IMG/VR virus record: IMGVR_UViG_3300027833_000261
Span: 1-20,555 of that record
DNA length: 20,555 bases
Origin: a virus
Direction: 5' to 3' (one strand)
In this document: positions 2,925-16,971 of the stretch, in pieces
Position numbering within the stretch: the stretch's first letter is position 1
How the letters are laid out: every line of letters starts with the position of its first letter
Notes under the pieces: generated by a model
Seen by the model: the letters and a program-made list of their open reading frames with translations, nothing else
Database searches by the model: none
What the model was told of the DNA's origin: nothing
Position numbers and translations under genes: made by a program

Positions 2925-3239
2925 TTACACCTGCTTTTTAGTCGTTATGAATGCTTCTAAATCCTGTTGCTTTAGTCGCATCAAGATCGCTTTTGGGTCT
3001 TCTTTCATCATGTCAAAACCTTCACGAAGCCACTGCTCATAGACTGAGACAGGCACTTCAGCAACACTCATAAATTCACCTTCTTTTTGATTCAGTGAGT
3101 TTTCACGCTGTCTGCGTAGAGTGTCCAAGAATGACGGGGCAATATACTGGGTCTGTTCAATGACATTTTCATCGCCTTTGTGTTCAAACATAAAGCGGTT
3201 TTGAATATCATGGTAAATGTAATTATCTTTTTTTATCAC
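2925..3239 (-). CDS. Conserved phage protein of unknown function next to the capsid gene
   Basis: 104 aa, hydrophilic, no signal peptide or membrane segment. The centre has FLDTLRRQRENSLNQKEGEF, then EVPVSVYEQWLREGFDMMKE and a C-terminal helix ending DLEAFITTKK. I believe proteins with this WLREGFD pattern sit beside capsid genes in other podoviruses, but I know no function. It may be a head-completion or small virion protein; this is inference from position. The start is GTG at 3239, with AAGGAG 9 nt upstream; the nearest ATG is out of frame. It ends 2 nt before the adaptor gene. Confidence 0.72.
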   Translation of the reverse strand: MIKKDNYIYHDIQNRFMFEHKGDENVIEQTQYIAPSFLDTLRRQRENSLNQKEGEFMSVAEVPVSVYEQWLREGFDMMKEDPKAILMRLKQQDLEAFITTKKQV

Positions 3240-7664: not shown

Positions 7665-9248
7665 TTAAACCATTTCTATATAAAAATTATCGGTGGATTC
7701 GACAGGAGTCCAAGCACCAGTGTGAACGTGATTGGCAAGAGCAAGCGCCATGACACAATCGTCATAGCAACCAGCTTCGGCCTGCATAGCGCCACTTTCG
7801 GTGACTATATAACTCAGCATTTCGCGCAGCGTGACTTTGCAGTTCACCTCCAACTCTTCACCACGCATTGCTGCGCGTAGTTGGTCTATGATTAAAGGTT
7901 TTGTCTTCTGAGTCGTTGTGAAACCTAGCTTTGTAGTTTCTCGATCAGTAATTTTGTCAAGCTGCTGCTCTGTGTGGAAATTGGGGTACGCCATATCTTT
8001 TCCCAGGCGGGTACACGTTAGAATTCCGTGGCTGTTATTCTCGACACAGATGTATGCCTCGTTGTAGTAAACACCTAGCGCATACAGAACATTTGCGAAG
8101 TAGTCGGGATGTACATGGCCTCGCCACGTTGCTACTTGGCGTTTTTTAGAGTCAAGTATCTGACACACAGAATAATCGCCGCCCCGCACTCCCATAGCGA
8201 CATCAGCCCCAATGACGTACATTTCTCCATTCACATGGGGTCTATAAGTACTAAGTTCACCACGCGCATTGTTGACAAACTCCTCGCCTTCTAAAGCGAG
8301 TCGTTCTTTGAGGTCTTGGGTAGTCTTTAGATTCCGAGAAATCTGCTCTGGATTAAATACTGGACGGCCAGTGGTCAAGAATGCTTCGTCTGGCTCGCTA
8401 GGGTACTCCTGACGGAATAGATCGATACCATTCTGGGCTATCTTTCTACGGCGAAACATTAGCTGCTCATTGTCTAAGTCATATAGCTTTGCTAAGTCTT
8501 CTTCGTCAGGAGTTCTCTCAAAGTTCTTCGTAACTGGTTCACGGTAATCAACATCAGTAAACCAAGGAATAAAAACAGGAACATAACCATTGCTACCATC
8601 GATAGCACCACGCCAAAGGTCAGCAAAAATGCCTGTTGCACCATTCGCAGTGGACTCGACAAAAATAGCCGTACCCTCCGAATTAGGGACTGCTTGAGTG
8701 AGTCCATTCCAGTTATCCAGTGCGGTACTCTTCTGCCAGAACGCAAGTTCAGAAGCATGGACATGAGTAAGCGTTTCGCCGCGTCCAATACTTTCACCGC
8801 CTGCCGTTGCAACCACAAAACTACTATCGAGTACGTCAAAATTCATCTCCCGCCTGGAACTATACTTTGTGTGTGGTTTTAAGATGTCAGGACAATGCTC
8901 ATGGAAGCGTTTTGTCATATCGAACAATGCGCGAGTAGAATCGGAGTGGTGTGTGATCACCATTGCTTTACTTGCGGCCTTCTGACTCACCGCAAAATAT
9001 AAATAGCCGCCTGTGTAGGTAGATAAGCCCTGCTGCCGTGCCTTTAAGATAATGACACGGATTTTACCTTCGGCGGCTAGTTGGTCTTCGACTGCGGTGT
9101 TAAGTATTATTTGTGCAGAGTTTAACTTTAGGGGGGATATGTTGCCGAGTTTGGTTCTTATCTTGAGTGCGGCGTTAGAGTAGTAGCCGTAATCAGTTAG
9201 TAGTCTCTTCCGTACTTTCGCTATTTTCTGGTGCATCGGGCTGCTCAT
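7665..9248 (-). CDS. Terminase large subunit (packaging ATPase and nuclease)
   Basis: 527 aa from ATG 9248. It would pump DNA into the procapsid and cut the concatemer. ATPase part: adenine-binding Q46 region, Walker A-like KARQQGLST at residues 69-77, Walker B-like THVHASE with catalytic E167, and a coupling motif STANG at 199-203. Nuclease part (RNase H fold): D349 in VIGAD, E403 in CVEN, and D496/D497 in YDDCVMA. All key residues are present. The 5' end overlaps TerS by 56 nt. Start choice is uncertain: an AAGAGG lies directly against ATG 9248, too close, but 12 nt before ATG 9236, which would shorten the protein by four residues. Confidence 0.93.
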   Translation of the reverse strand: MSSPMHQKIAKVRKRLLTDYGYYSNAALKIRTKLGNISPLKLNSAQIILNTAVEDQLAAEGKIRVIILKARQQGLSTYTGGYLYFAVSQKAASKAMVITHHSDSTRALFDMTKRFHEHCPDILKPHTKYSSRREMNFDVLDSSFVVATAGGESIGRGETLTHVHASELAFWQKSTALDNWNGLTQAVPNSEGTAIFVESTANGATGIFADLWRGAIDGSNGYVPVFIPWFTDVDYREPVTKNFERTPDEEDLAKLYDLDNEQLMFRRRKIAQNGIDLFRQEYPSEPDEAFLTTGRPVFNPEQISRNLKTTQDLKERLALEGEEFVNNARGELSTYRPHVNGEMYVIGADVAMGVRGGDYSVCQILDSKKRQVATWRGHVHPDYFANVLYALGVYYNEAYICVENNSHGILTCTRLGKDMAYPNFHTEQQLDKITDRETTKLGFTTTQKTKPLIIDQLRAAMRGEELEVNCKVTLREMLSYIVTESGAMQAEAGCYDDCVMALALANHVHTGAWTPVESTDNFYIEMV

Positions 9249-9714
9249 CCTCTTGCAATAATGTCGCTAGGAAATCTTCTGCTCTAGATATCGAGACATC
9301 GGATTTACTGGCAGGCTTACTTTTTGTGAAGTCCAAAACCAATCGTGCAGCCGCTAGGCGCTCTCTTGTCTCGCCAACCAGTCGCATTACTTCTACGGCA
9401 GTGGTCAAGGCTTCCTTTTGGTATTCATCTTCAATATTGAATTTATTACTCATAATCTCTACTACCTTTTTTGCGTCAAGCTTGGCTTGTTCACGGAGTG
9501 GTGCAATGGTCTCTTTACGGTGGCCGTCAGGCACTCCCTTTGGCCGACCTGCGTTTTTTTTGGGCTTGTTTGACCACTCTTTCCGCAGCGCCCTGCCCTC
9601 CGGTGTTGACATCAGGGTCTTGAAGTAGTTGTTCGGCCTCGCGTTTTTGGGGTGCGTTAGCGCCTTTGGAGGGGACACTGCTCGTTTTTTTCTTGGGGGC
9701 TTTTGTTGTTCCAT
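9193..9714 (-). CDS. Terminase small subunit
   Basis: 173 aa from ATG 9714. It would recognise phage DNA and hand it to TerL. The first 50 residues are Lys/Pro-rich. The recognisable part starts with the basic GRPKGVPDGHRK motif at about 56-67, common at the beginning of small terminases, followed by helices (LREQAKLDAKKVVEIMSNKF, then TAVEVMRLVGETRERLAAAR) suited to oligomerisation, and an acidic C-terminal tail that could bind TerL. It overlaps TerL by 56 nt, a standard TerS-TerL arrangement, and overlaps the upstream 127-aa frame by 188 nt. Start uncertain: AAAGG lies about 12 nt before ATG 9714; Met35 (9612) has no better site. Confidence 0.8.
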   Translation of the reverse strand: MEQQKPPRKKRAVSPPKALTHPKNARPNNYFKTLMSTPEGRALRKEWSNKPKKNAGRPKGVPDGHRKETIAPLREQAKLDAKKVVEIMSNKFNIEDEYQKEALTTAVEVMRLVGETRERLAAARLVLDFTKSKPASKSDVSISRAEDFLATLLQEDEQPDAPENSESTEETTN

Positions 9715-9910
9715 CGGGCGTTTTATCCTTTAGTATTTTTTCTATGATCTGCCTAGTGTTTATAGAGGAGGTACACATCATTTCTGGTGGTAACTCTGAG
9801 CGCATTTCTTTAAGAATGTTTGTGCGCTGCTCTTTGTCTAGGAAAGAACTTTCTGTTACTTCTTGGATTGCCTTTAGGTATTGGACTAAGTCCATTGCTT
9901 TAGTTGACAC
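9527..9910 (-). CDS. Unknown 127-aa protein overlapping the small terminase gene
   Basis: GTG start at 9910 with AAGGAG 6 nt upstream, the best ribosome site in this stretch, so translation very probably begins here. The first ~70 residues look like a normal helical domain (AMDLVQYLKAIQEVTESSF, then NTRQIIEKILKDK) and cover DNA with no other gene. The last third is Lys/Ala/Gln-rich and shares 188 nt with TerS in another frame. A run of seven A (T7 at 9685-9691 on the plus strand) lies at the beginning of the shared part. Removing one base there would join this N-terminus to TerS as one protein of roughly 235 aa. No family recognised; it may be a terminase accessory protein or the true TerS N-terminal domain. 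Confidence 0.6.
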   Translation of the reverse strand: MSTKAMDLVQYLKAIQEVTESSFLDKEQRTNILKEMRSELPPEMMCTSSINTRQIIEKILKDKTPDGTTKAPKKKTSSVPSKGANAPQKREAEQLLQDPDVNTGGQGAAERVVKQAQKKRRSAKGSA

Positions 9911-9933
9911 ATAACTCTCCTTATGTGAATTTT

Positions 9934-12342
9934 TTACATGGGTGGAGGCGTTGGTGCTGGTGGCGGTGGTACTGGTGGTGGTGGTGGTGGCTGACCGCCC
10001 CTTTTCTCTTGCTGTTGCATTACTCTATTTTTGTAAGGCAAGAAATAAGTAGCCAGATGTATCTGCATAACACCTACTTCGAGCAACTGCTTATGTATCG
10101 CCTCTAAGGTGCTGACAGGGTCTTTACCTAGATTATTAGCCATCTTGTTAAGGGCAGCGTCTAGCCTTTTCTTGTCGATCATTGAGACACTGGAGTCTTC
10201 ACTTAGCTGCTTCTTTAAGTCCTCAACTATTGCGATATTGTCTAACCTGCCACGGGTATATCCTGGCGATTCTTTCACACCCCCGCCAGCTAGTAAGATT
10301 TTATTTAGTGTGGCTATGTCTTCTGGGAGCCTTACTCTACGCTTACCAACAGTGTCAGGGTTTTGGTTGATGAGTCCATTGATATGCCTTAAAGCACCGA
10401 AACCGGAAACCTTCTCACCGTATTTCATACTTTCAATTAGGTCTTCCATTTCTTGGCGTATAGTCGGGTCTAGATTAGGGTCTTGAAGTTGCTCCTCTAT
10501 TGTAGCCTCTAGACCAGCCCTATCCATCCCAGTGAATCTCTCGTAGTAACCTTGAGGTGACTCTGGGTTTGCGGGGGCGTTGTTCTTATAGTTGTAGTAG
10601 TGCTTCATTCTTTCAGCAGCTTTTGCTTGCCTAGACTTTTCTAAGGCTGCGGCATTAGCTTTTTTAGTAGCTGCTAGGTTCTTGTCTGTCTCACCCATGC
10701 CTGTTACTTTTCCGAAACCATCGCCGCCTTTGTTCTTCGCTATGTAACGCTTAACTTTTGAACGCCTACCTGTAATCTTGTCGATCATACGACCACCGAC
10801 AAAGATAGCTGCTTGTGGAGCCAAAGATGCACCACCTGTACTCACGGCAAGGCCAGTTTGAGTCGCACCTTTGATAGCATTGGTTACGGCTGCTTTACCA
10901 GAATAGTTGGAATTAGTCGGCATAGGGTTAGCCAGATCAGTGAACTTAGATACACCACCGACTAGACCATCGTTCCACACTTTAGTCTGCTCTTGGCTTT
11001 CTTTGACTAAATTTATTAGACGCTTACCGTCTGCTGTTTCACCCACTAGGCTTTTGAGCAAAGATAAGTCACTTGAGCCAACCACTGATTTGGTTTTGTT
11101 ACGCGCTTGCGCCAACATAGCTTTAATTTTTATCCTATCTGCCTTTTCTTGGGAAGTTAGGTTTTTGGCATTAGGGTTAAGGTATTCTTTTAGAGAAGAC
11201 TCTAGGTTTTTTATATCTGATCCTATAGCTACATGGGCTGCGTCTATCAGCGCACGGACACCCTTAGTTGAAGTAGTGTCAAGATCATTCATGTCATAGG
11301 GGTTACCGTTGACATCCCCGTCACGCTGAAGAGCCTCTAGACGCTGTGCGAAAGTAGATTGAGCAAGTCGATCACTCAGACCTGCTGGCTGACCTCTTAC
11401 AAGAGCGCCTGTGGTAGAGGCTGCTCCCATGACACCTTGGGCAGCACCAGAGTTAGTGACACCTAATGCAAAACTTTCTATGCCACGATCTAGTACTTCA
11501 TCCTCCGTGTACTCGCCGCCTCTAGAAGCTGCACCAGCCATCGATACGCCTTCTTGAGCAGCTTCAGTTAAACCTTCCGCAGTAAATCTTTTTGCGACTT
11601 GGGCTGCGGCTTGGGCATATCCTTTTTTAGTAAGTTCGTCAGTTATTTCTTTGCCTGTCATTTTCAATAGGCGTGATCTAGGTATAACTTTACCAGCACC
11701 AAACTTGTCTAGTAGCCCGATTAATATTCCTTGGCCGACAACTAAAGCGGCATCGTAATCACCTACTTTCTCTTCTTGTTCAAACGCAGCTTCACCCGCG
11801 CCCATAGTTCCGCTTCCAGCTAAAGTCGCTATGCCTAGTACGGCAGCGGCTGGAGTAGATACTGTTGCAGCAGCGGCAGTAGCAACACCGCCTATAAGGG
11901 CAACACCCCCAGACACAGAGTTCTCTGCTGTCTTTTCACCTAACCAGCTAACGGCTGATGCTACGCCATCTTGGTTGAAAGTATCACGAAGTGACTTAGT
12001 GTGGGTTGGGGCATAGCCGCCCTTGGCGAGGTCTTGGTCTTGCTGTTCAACTACTGAAGTTCCATAGTTTTCTAACGGGGTTGACCCCACAAAGCGGCCT
12101 GCCGCCTCAAGACCCTTGCCGCCCATCCTCTGCGCTTGATCTACAGAGTACTGGAAAGCATTGTCTTGCTTGGGTGCAATTTGTCTCATTGGGCGCATAG
12201 CCGTAGAGGACTGAGTCGTTGCCTGGGACTGCGCGGCTTGCTCTGCTCTGTAGGCGTTAGCCAAGTTCTGAGCGTCCTCTGTGTTACCCGCTTTGTCTGC
12301 GGCAGATAGTGCATTATAAATCTGAAGCAGACGCTGGGACAT
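9934..12342 (-). CDS. Large internal virion / DNA-ejection protein
   Basis: 802 aa. N-terminus MSQRLLQIYNALSAADKAGN resembles the short helical opening of many phage ejection and polyvalent proteins. Residues about 143-182 form a Gly/Ala-rich hydrophobic stretch with two likely membrane-crossing helices, and 199-214 a third (ALVVGQGILIGLLDKF). The segment AEGLTEAAQEG follows. The rest is long, charged and helical, ending in an 18-residue proline-rich tail. Place (third and largest of three, before terminase) and membrane-active segment suggest a role like T7 gp16, crossing the host envelope with the genome. I see no clear lysozyme or transglycosylase site. ATG 12342 has GAGG at 8 nt, 12 nt after the previous stop. 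Confidence 0.68.
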   Translation of the reverse strand: MSQRLLQIYNALSAADKAGNTEDAQNLANAYRAEQAAQSQATTQSSTAMRPMRQIAPKQDNAFQYSVDQAQRMGGKGLEAAGRFVGSTPLENYGTSVVEQQDQDLAKGGYAPTHTKSLRDTFNQDGVASAVSWLGEKTAENSVSGGVALIGGVATAAAATVSTPAAAVLGIATLAGSGTMGAGEAAFEQEEKVGDYDAALVVGQGILIGLLDKFGAGKVIPRSRLLKMTGKEITDELTKKGYAQAAAQVAKRFTAEGLTEAAQEGVSMAGAASRGGEYTEDEVLDRGIESFALGVTNSGAAQGVMGAASTTGALVRGQPAGLSDRLAQSTFAQRLEALQRDGDVNGNPYDMNDLDTTSTKGVRALIDAAHVAIGSDIKNLESSLKEYLNPNAKNLTSQEKADRIKIKAMLAQARNKTKSVVGSSDLSLLKSLVGETADGKRLINLVKESQEQTKVWNDGLVGGVSKFTDLANPMPTNSNYSGKAAVTNAIKGATQTGLAVSTGGASLAPQAAIFVGGRMIDKITGRRSKVKRYIAKNKGGDGFGKVTGMGETDKNLAATKKANAAALEKSRQAKAAERMKHYYNYKNNAPANPESPQGYYERFTGMDRAGLEATIEEQLQDPNLDPTIRQEMEDLIESMKYGEKVSGFGALRHINGLINQNPDTVGKRRVRLPEDIATLNKILLAGGGVKESPGYTRGRLDNIAIVEDLKKQLSEDSSVSMIDKKRLDAALNKMANNLGKDPVSTLEAIHKQLLEVGVMQIHLATYFLPYKNRVMQQQEKRGGQPPPPPPVPPPPAPTPPPM
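9937..9990 (-). repeat. Proline-rich C-terminal tail and CCA microsatellite
   Basis: The last 18 codons of the 802-aa protein read PPPPPPVPPPPAPTPPPM, largely from tandem CCA codons. Runs of six and four prolines stall ribosomes and normally need elongation factor P. The triplet run is also prone to slippage, so its length may vary between relatives. Confidence 0.85.
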
Positions 12343-15956: not shown

Positions 15957-16661
15957 CTAGTTTGGGTCGTAGACGAGCATATATGTGAAGGTTCCGGTTC
16001 CTGTGGCTGAAGCCCCATTTCCGAATAAATATTTATGTTCTACAACAATGTATGGAGTGCTTGCGGACGAGAAAAAATGATATCCCAAGGTAAATGTTTG
16101 TGCCGCTGAGTTCACTGGGAAACCAATCGGGGGGATGTAGTTCATAAGCGAACCATTGACAACCGCATAGATTTTATTGAAGTCTAAAGAAGACGGCGGG
16201 GTGTAAGTAACCGAAGAACCTATTGTAACTGTACCGACCGCCAACAATCGGACACCTGTCATTCTGGTTGCGGAAAACAATAGTGTTGAGCCGTTGGTAT
16301 CGTATATGTCTAAGCCGTACTCGCCCGATGAGGGGGAGCCTATGCCAACTGATTGATTTTTTAACAGGGCAGTCACAATGCCAGCAGTATTCTGAAAGTT
16401 TTGTGAGGAGGTCGAAGTCTGTGACCCGTAAAATCTGTTCAGAGTACCTATCGCAATCGGCACATACCCGCCCGAAGTGTAGACCGGACTATTCACTGGC
16501 CTAGCTAGAATTAAATCACCAGCGGCATACCCGCTTGGTGGATACGCCATCGCTGAGTATGCAGAAGTCGTTACATTTTTTAGCTGAGTATTCGGGTAGG
16601 ATTCATTCGTATCTAATTGCTTTCTCCCGTCAGCGTTAAAAATCTGCATTCCATATGCCAT
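15957..16661 (-). CDS. MAYG-type tail protein, 234 aa
   Basis: Start set at ATG 16661 because AGGAG lies 9 nt upstream and the N-terminus MAYGMQIFNADGRKQLD then matches that of the preceding 101-aa protein; a longer frame to 16733 would overlap that gene. The protein is beta-rich, with many Ser, Thr, Tyr and Gly, no membrane segment, and a C-terminal strand series ending FTYMLVYDPN. N-termini of this kind occur in small phage tail or receptor-associated proteins (possibly DUF6453; remembered, not searched). It probably forms part of a fibre or tail tip. It starts 4 nt after the previous stop. Confidence 0.7.
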   Translation of the reverse strand: MAYGMQIFNADGRKQLDTNESYPNTQLKNVTTSAYSAMAYPPSGYAAGDLILARPVNSPVYTSGGYVPIAIGTLNRFYGSQTSTSSQNFQNTAGIVTALLKNQSVGIGSPSSGEYGLDIYDTNGSTLLFSATRMTGVRLLAVGTVTIGSSVTYTPPSSLDFNKIYAVVNGSLMNYIPPIGFPVNSAAQTFTLGYHFFSSASTPYIVVEHKYLFGNGASATGTGTFTYMLVYDPN

Positions 16662-16665
16662 TCTA

Positions 16666-16971
16666 TTAACTCCTAAAAACGTAGTAAGAAATACTCGTAG
16701 AAGCTGGCGTTGATGCTGATGTGCTGTATCCAATTCTCAAGTTGTTTGTAGATTTAGTGTAATACCAGTCTTGAACAAAACCGGAAAACAAAGCTATGTT
16801 TAGACCTACTGTCCAGCTATCATCATTAGCCATTCCGCTTATAGCGATATCCACATAACTGTTTCGATTCACCGTCACAGTACCATGCGTCACTAACCTT
16901 AAAAGGCGATCAGTGTTGCCCACGATTTTCTTCGTGCCTGCTGCGTTAAACACTTCCAGACCGTAAGCCAT
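16666..16971 (-). CDS. MAYG-type tail protein, 101 aa
   Basis: The N-terminus MAYGLEVFNAAGTKKIV is paralogous to that of the next gene. The rest is beta-rich (TVNRNSYVDIAISGM, LNIALFSGFVQDWYY) and ends SISYYVFRS. It is less than half the length of its neighbour. The start ATG shares one base with the stop of the DUF1983 gene (TAATG). Likely a small tail-tip or fibre component; no function is known to me. Confidence 0.7.
   Translation of the reverse strand: MAYGLEVFNAAGTKKIVGNTDRLLRLVTHGTVTVNRNSYVDIAISGMANDDSWTVGLNIALFSGFVQDWYYTKSTNNLRIGYSTSASTPASTSISYYVFRS

Follow-up and report, generated by a model that had tools for sequence, protein, structure and literature searches.

In the 20,555-base virus record from IMG/VR analysed here (hereafter the window, meaning that whole stretch of DNA), two open reading frames in different frames share 188 nt of the minus strand (9527..9714). 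The first is an upstream gene of 127 aa with a GTG start (9527..9910, minus strand), recognised both as an ORF and by its N-terminal domain, which recurs in relatives; the second encodes a probable terminase small subunit, TerS, of 173 aa with its own ATG (9193..9714, minus strand). This arrangement raises the question of whether the locus holds two genes, one protein assembled by frameshifting, or a damaged single gene. A sequence-only reading of the window had reported the overlap and had left dual coding, programmed frameshifting at a run of seven A and a homopolymer error as competing explanations; the overlap, both ORFs and the starts at GTG 9910 and ATG 9714 are confirmed here. Our analysis, some steps of which are inferred, indicates that these are very probably two separate, out-of-frame overlapping genes with independent starts: across relatives both frames are kept open, the starts are separate and the A-run is not conserved. 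Judged from these comparisons, the overlap is a real and conserved example of an ordinary kind of overlapping gene pair.

The pair sits in a virion module on the minus strand whose sequence matches assign it to the SU10-like group, with Pfam hits to the SU10 portal (E 2.2e-181), capsid (E 1.3e-70) and adaptor (E 2.1e-28). On this strand the 127-aa ORF is followed by TerS and then by TerL (527 aa, 7665..9248, minus strand), which matches PHROG terminase families and overlaps the end of TerS by 56 nt (9193-9248, minus strand). The earlier remark that long overlaps are rare in the window is partly correct. In a survey of 19 genes, a set that excludes the two ORFs at the window ends, TerL and TerS share these 56 nt, the scaffold gene and an 86-aa gene share 32 nt, and a 258-aa and a 101-aa ORF share 68 nt if the TTG start of the former is right. 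The last two ORFs occupy 15957-16971 on the minus strand. TerL has its first in-frame ATG 41-110 nt ahead of the TerS end across 38 loci.

The product of 9193..9714 is a probable terminase small subunit, an assignment based on its position adjoining TerL and on weak matches within its family to the PHROG terminase small subunit phrog_2538 (25 of 32 TerS members at E up to 0.1, best E 1.7e-4). A second family of unknown function, phrog_15261, is matched by 31 of the 32 members at E up to 0.1 (best 6.3e-5) and is the only one matched by the window's own TerS protein (E 0.0071). The TerS fold has no PDB match with E below 0.001. As the sequence-only reading had proposed, the AAGGAG before GTG 9910 is a strong ribosome site and the Shine-Dalgarno-like AAAGGAT of TerS (9725..9731, minus strand) a weaker one, with duplex energies of -9.6 vs -5.4 kcal/mol. 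An in-frame ATG at 9895, 15 nt past GTG 9910, is a possible alternative start for the upstream gene. TerS starts are not hidden by RNA structure: their mean unpaired probability is 0.56 vs 0.52 at random TerS sites (37 loci), and there is therefore no sign of coupling by unfolding.

The relatives carry most of the argument. A TerS search of IMG/VR found 119 loci, of which 80 were kept (the first-search loci); TerS is present in all 80 and the upstream domain in 79, locus L019 being the exception. A check of these relatives for a single uninterrupted ORF, suggested by the sequence-only reading, found none: in all 96 loci with both genes the upstream domain lies in the other frame and the relative frame is identical, a count that includes contig duplicates and the window, takes the best hit per locus on the plus strand of oriented loci, and uses profiles built from these same loci. 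For the quantitative comparisons, the 80 loci and the window (81 sequences) were reduced to 38 non-redundant loci by dropping eight with an unplaced start (contig ends, L019 and L056, together with L052, L058, L062 and L063, which the motif missed) and then removing near-identical sequences (>97%) and the truncated L020.

Across these 38 loci the overlap measures 62-197 nt and varies by clade. TerS has its own start in every one (ATG in 36, GTG in 2), with GGAG, AGGA, GAGG or AAGG no more than 20 nt before it in 34 and GAGAG in the remaining four. In every locus with candidate starts for the upstream gene, one of them lies 117 or 120 nt ahead of a Leu-Pro motif; other candidates exist in those loci, and later counts took only these two distances. 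The start so placed, which in the window is GTG 9910, usually has the best purine-rich site as judged by eye. The sequences of the relatives thus point to separate starts and to conservation of both ORFs.

Outlying loci extend this picture. In the distant L097 (TerS 62% identical, from a gammaproteobacterial assembly), the upstream gene is a 91-aa version with an overlap of 86 nt. In L019 (about 2985-3100), TerS occurs without the upstream gene, directly behind a different ORF and with a purine-rich site before its ATG, as if the arrangement had been exchanged at the TerS start. In L098, a contig from a SAR116-labelled assembly, the upstream domain is absent. Its TerS match is confined to residues 8-120, suggesting a phage remnant altered by decay or recombination. 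A search of 50,697 phage records returned no match to TerS at E 0.01 and none to the 127-aa protein at E 1. The closest phage TerL is that of Roseobacter phage CRP-7 (38%); neither the TerS nor the upstream profile has a match in the fetched stretch of CRP-7 or of the next phage (L099, L100).

These loci bear directly on the two explanations that invoke the A-runs. The A7 run (9685..9691, minus strand) does read AGA AAA AAA in the TerS frame, where its first A completes an Arg codon and the other six form two Lys codons; in the 127-aa frame its first six A form two Lys codons and the seventh begins a Thr codon. It is one of five runs of at least seven A or T in the window, and an A8 run in the same overlap (9554..9561, minus strand), also found in L001 and L002, had been missed. 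Codons on the minus strand start at 1 mod 3 in the 127-aa frame and at 0 mod 3 in the TerS frame, so that passage from the former into TerS needs a +1 (or -2) shift. The claim that the run is a -1 slippery heptamer leading into TerS consequently has the direction wrong, a -1 slip moving a TerS ribosome into the 127-aa frame, and the companion claim that removing one base would fuse the two ORFs describes a +1 shift, at odds with that heptamer.

Programmed frameshifting at the A7 run, which would fuse the 127-aa N-terminus to TerS, is accorded a very low probability. The upstream frame reads AAG AAA AAA ACG at the run, where a +1 slip could re-pair, and runs of at least seven A occur somewhere in the overlap of nine of the 38 loci and within the first 45 nt of TerS in seven; yet their offsets differ, and the +1 direction makes a -1 heptamer irrelevant. 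The longest A-run at the first TerS Arg-Lys motif is seven in three loci, six in four and at most four in 31, by a first-match rule that misses L066, whose A7 sits at the next Arg-Lys-Lys. L002, with a TerS 91% identical to the window's, reads AGA AAG CAA at the same position. TerS, moreover, has its own start in 38 of 38 loci and stands alone in L019. A conserved slippery sequence leading into the new frame is not found in these alignments, which indicate instead that the A7 run is not conserved and that its source is lysine-rich coding. A homopolymer sequencing or assembly error that split one gene into two frames has a probability close to nil: the A7 and A8 runs both fall inside the overlap, but the same two frames recur in 79 of the 80 first-search loci, which refutes the error unless all 79 carry an equivalent one, and 29 of the 38 non-redundant loci have no run of seven or more A in the overlap. 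L001 (TerS 99% identical), on a separate contig, also has both frames, though it shares both runs.

With two genes as the preferred reading, the upstream frame can be compared with a null model in which TerS amino acids are fixed and synonymous codons are resampled from each locus's own usage. In the window, the chance of an open upstream frame is 0.006 over the later part of the overlap and 0.171 over the earlier part. Over a fixed 66-nt stretch, picked after the stop positions had been seen, the frame is open in 26 of 38 loci where 4.97 would be expected; of 18 hand-picked diverged loci, 12 are open where 2.44 would be expected (P 1.7e-8 if independent, which these loci are not fully). Control stretches give 1, 5 and 5 open loci of 38 in the same frame further down TerS (2.6, 5.2 and 2.8 expected) and 1, 0, 4 and 10 in the other frame (6.1, 6.4, 2.1 and 9.7 expected). 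In the part of the overlap common to both groups, a synonymous T before AA, AG or GA occurs in 0/105 cases in the 26 long-overlap loci and 0/41 in the 12 short-overlap loci, vs 193/497 and 92/217 further down TerS, an avoidance that is partly true by definition, since an ORF contains no stop. These comparisons indicate that stop codons are strongly avoided in the upstream frame and that this frame is open beyond chance.

Constraint on the amino acids of the shared tail is a separate matter. Outside the overlap, the upstream gene is clearly constrained by sequence comparison (median dN/dS 0.22 over 61 pairs; 10-90% range 0.08-0.61). Within it, a pairwise test that ignores the tree, taking synonymous change in the shared part relative to the remainder of TerS, gives ratios of 0.85 for 16 long-overlap loci and 1.18 for 12 short-overlap ones (bootstrap P 0.001). 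A count of changes that accounts for tree and codon degeneracy finds no such effect (P 0.47 with 14 loci, 0.30 with 20 loci). The low synonymous change in both frames that the sequence-only reading had named as a mark of dual coding is thus seen pairwise and is gone once these two factors are counted. Dual coding itself is upheld as far as two kept frames and separate starts go (79 of the 80 first-search loci), whereas the tests of amino-acid constraint on the tail disagree. The upstream-frame pN/pS in the shared part is 1.93 (16 long-overlap loci), between the non-coding controls of 1.81 and 4.54, and of 12 loci tried, only 3 have a tail charge above the null at P<0.05, the window (P 0.079) not among them. 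Frame openness together with drifting tail residues implies that the frame persists even as its letters change.

A variant of the two-gene reading, not exclusive of it, holds that the upstream gene is real and that overlap beyond about 80 nt is drift, the tail being translated and tolerated, with no function. The end of the ORF differs among clades and, by eye, has changed repeatedly on the tree, and neither the tree-aware P values (0.47 and 0.30) nor the pN/pS of 1.93 gives a signal of amino-acid constraint; the 66-nt stretch is nevertheless open far more often than chance would give (26 of the 38 loci, and 12 of the 18 diverged ones). We regard this variant as a serious possibility, though the less likely side of the balance.

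Structural modeling of the 127-aa protein agrees with a division into two parts. Residues 1 to about 65 are predicted to form a three-helix bundle, with confident helices at 5-20, 26-38 and 50-63 (mean pLDDT 86-93 in residues 1-60), and the rest is a low-confidence tail (mean pLDDT 38-51 from residue 71; residues 69-111 and 124-127 below 50; a doubtful helix at 108-123). The overlap starts at about residue 66, where the predicted folded part ends, and the first 29 residues of TerS have no predicted secondary structure. With both products low in structure there, the shared DNA mostly encodes two stretches without confident structure.

Homology searches did not reveal a function for the upstream protein. 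PHROGs has no match for the window's 127-aa protein and scattered weak ones in at most 3 of 37 members; the best match among PDB sequences has E 0.3, and a Foldseek search of the PDB with the model returned nothing with E below 0.001. The best Pfam candidate, TMEM215 (E 0.0097), was rejected as below the cut-off and lying over the tail. Fold matches to 14-3-3 segments from VIA (best Z 7.7) were likewise set aside, falling in the range that the tool calls a common helical arrangement. The model does match two viral models with uninformative names, A0A516M1N9 (E 5.4e-5) and A0A6J7XBC3 (E 7.2e-4).

The start of the upstream gene carries a feature of its own. At 9908..9927 (minus strand), the arms CACATAA and TTATGTG enclose a six-base loop, GGAGAG, which holds the Shine-Dalgarno sequence, and the 3' arm contains the AUGUG start. 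Folding of the 56 nt around this hairpin gives -10.4 kcal/mol (z -2.03), with 5 of 200 shuffles as good. A 16-nt core, TAAGGAGAGTTATGTG, is present in 16 of the 38 loci, and these 16 make up the whole of the window's clade, with no locus outside it (support 0.66). In 15 core loci, selected by having the core, three further bases are also identical, and the flanks have a mean identity of 42% over the 20 nt before and 47% over the 30 nt after. In a wider set, 153 sequences with the upstream domain (many of them duplicates, and 41 fetched by the core itself) reduce to 61 distinct start regions, of which 29 contain TAAGGAGAGTTA and 32 lack it. Seven pairs form in 21 of these 29 regions, six pairs with an A-U to G-C change in three, and six pairs in one; in the other four (the L052/L053/L054 and L062 groups), pairing occurs by the loop and further out, with one mismatch between.

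Among 23 distinct rows, both-side changes occur in two of the seven pairs and amount to five cells, vs 0.7 in shuffles; two pairs are reached by 17 of 500 shuffles, five cells by none, and the number of pair types by 281. Slid versions of the hairpin reach at most one pair and two cells. The compensatory changes, few in number and located in a second clade, probably represent one or two events on the tree. Taken together, these patterns in the alignment argue for a conserved hairpin, with compensatory changes, over the Shine-Dalgarno sequence and start codon. Across the 833 kb (both strands counted) of 60 loci that carry the exact 20-mer, some of them duplicates, no other hairpin combines at least seven pairs with a 5-8 nt loop containing GGAG or AGGA. 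Lineages without the hairpin still have the gene overlap, and the two features are therefore separable. A role as a generic signal was considered and rejected; the core occurs in 68 IMG/VR contigs, directly before the upstream gene in 41 and elsewhere in 27, these latter sites being mostly accompanied by an ORF from the same ATG. A comparison of 9100-10300 with Rfam returned nothing at E 1 or below. No title or abstract opening describing such a hairpin was found in a literature search of partial coverage.

The same bases could be read as DNA. With 7-bp arms flanking a 6-bp spacer, the inverted repeat over the upstream start has the symmetry that a dimeric DNA-binding protein would need, and it might act as a site for a repressor or packaging enzyme and not as an RNA hairpin. 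This alternative, which concerns the hairpin only, is unlikely: in each of the 29 core regions the spacer GGAGAG, which forms the loop, is exactly the Shine-Dalgarno sequence, and the start codon falls within the arm or beside it, though here invariance of the spacer follows from selection of the regions, the core itself including the spacer. Read as RNA, the hairpin resembles a translational operator, a function suggested by its sequence. Among translational operators, CsrA sites carry GGA in the loop of a hairpin, and the likeness of the phage hairpin to CsrA-type operators lies in a loop GGA that overlaps the Shine-Dalgarno sequence (PMC5027483). A crude motif scan of 186 sequences, all from genome pieces, found no CsrA-like protein.

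The AUG of AUGUG also opens a mini-ORF in the TerS frame (9886..9912, minus strand), with eight codons, MCQLKQWT, and then a stop; 12 of the 16 core-clade loci have a start-stop AUGUGA where the window has MCQLKQWT. At ambiguous AUGUG starts in E. coli, spacings of 11/13 lead to initiation only at GUG, according to Kohl et al. 2022 (PMC9841429). The phage site is similar in having AUGUG after a UAAGGAG-type Shine-Dalgarno sequence, with spacing counted as 11/13, and differs in that the motif lies inside a conserved hairpin, the word "hairpin" being absent from the main text of that paper (PMC9841429). The GUG pairs with CAC in the hairpin, and the hairpin itself may thereby explain the AUGUG motif.

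The two-gene reading suggests how the cassette could work. A small upstream gene would encode a folded helical domain and a flexible tail, the DNA of the tail being also the beginning of TerS, and TerS would be initiated independently from its own start and Shine-Dalgarno sequence inside the upstream gene. Tail length would drift as stops in the upstream frame come and go while TerS amino acids are kept. We infer that both genes yield protein, with their translation linked and the tail acting as a flexible segment. The hairpin at the start of the upstream gene may, in the lineage of the window, tune translation of the cassette. More broadly, the head of the packaging cassette (small gene, TerS and TerL, with overlaps of 188 and 56 nt) might be governed by a translational-operator hairpin through which one RNA-binding regulator, or temperature, sets the first gene and, via the overlaps, the terminase genes, a speculative proposal that we hold to be somewhat unlikely.

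Gene callers may trim long overlaps or read them as error, and the 79 of 80 relatives indicate that both genes here are real. Clades with short and long overlaps offer a natural experiment on overlap growth. The hairpin, a better lead than the overlap, offers a candidate, open to testing, for how uncultured phages might control DNA packaging at the level of translation.

Set beside known systems, the window shares with SU10 (an Escherichia phage, Kuravirus) the order TerL, portal, small protein, scaffold and major capsid; it differs at the head of the module, where the SU10 record has a hypothetical gene (1505-1978) that ends 161 nt before TerL, with no overlap there. Out-of-frame overlapping gene pairs are known in viruses and phages. 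The TerS pair is like them in lying on the same strand in different frames, with own starts and with the shared part of the upstream product predicted to be disordered, whereas here only the C-terminal tail of the upstream protein and the N-terminus of TerS are shared, over a length that ranges by clade from 62 to 197 nt.
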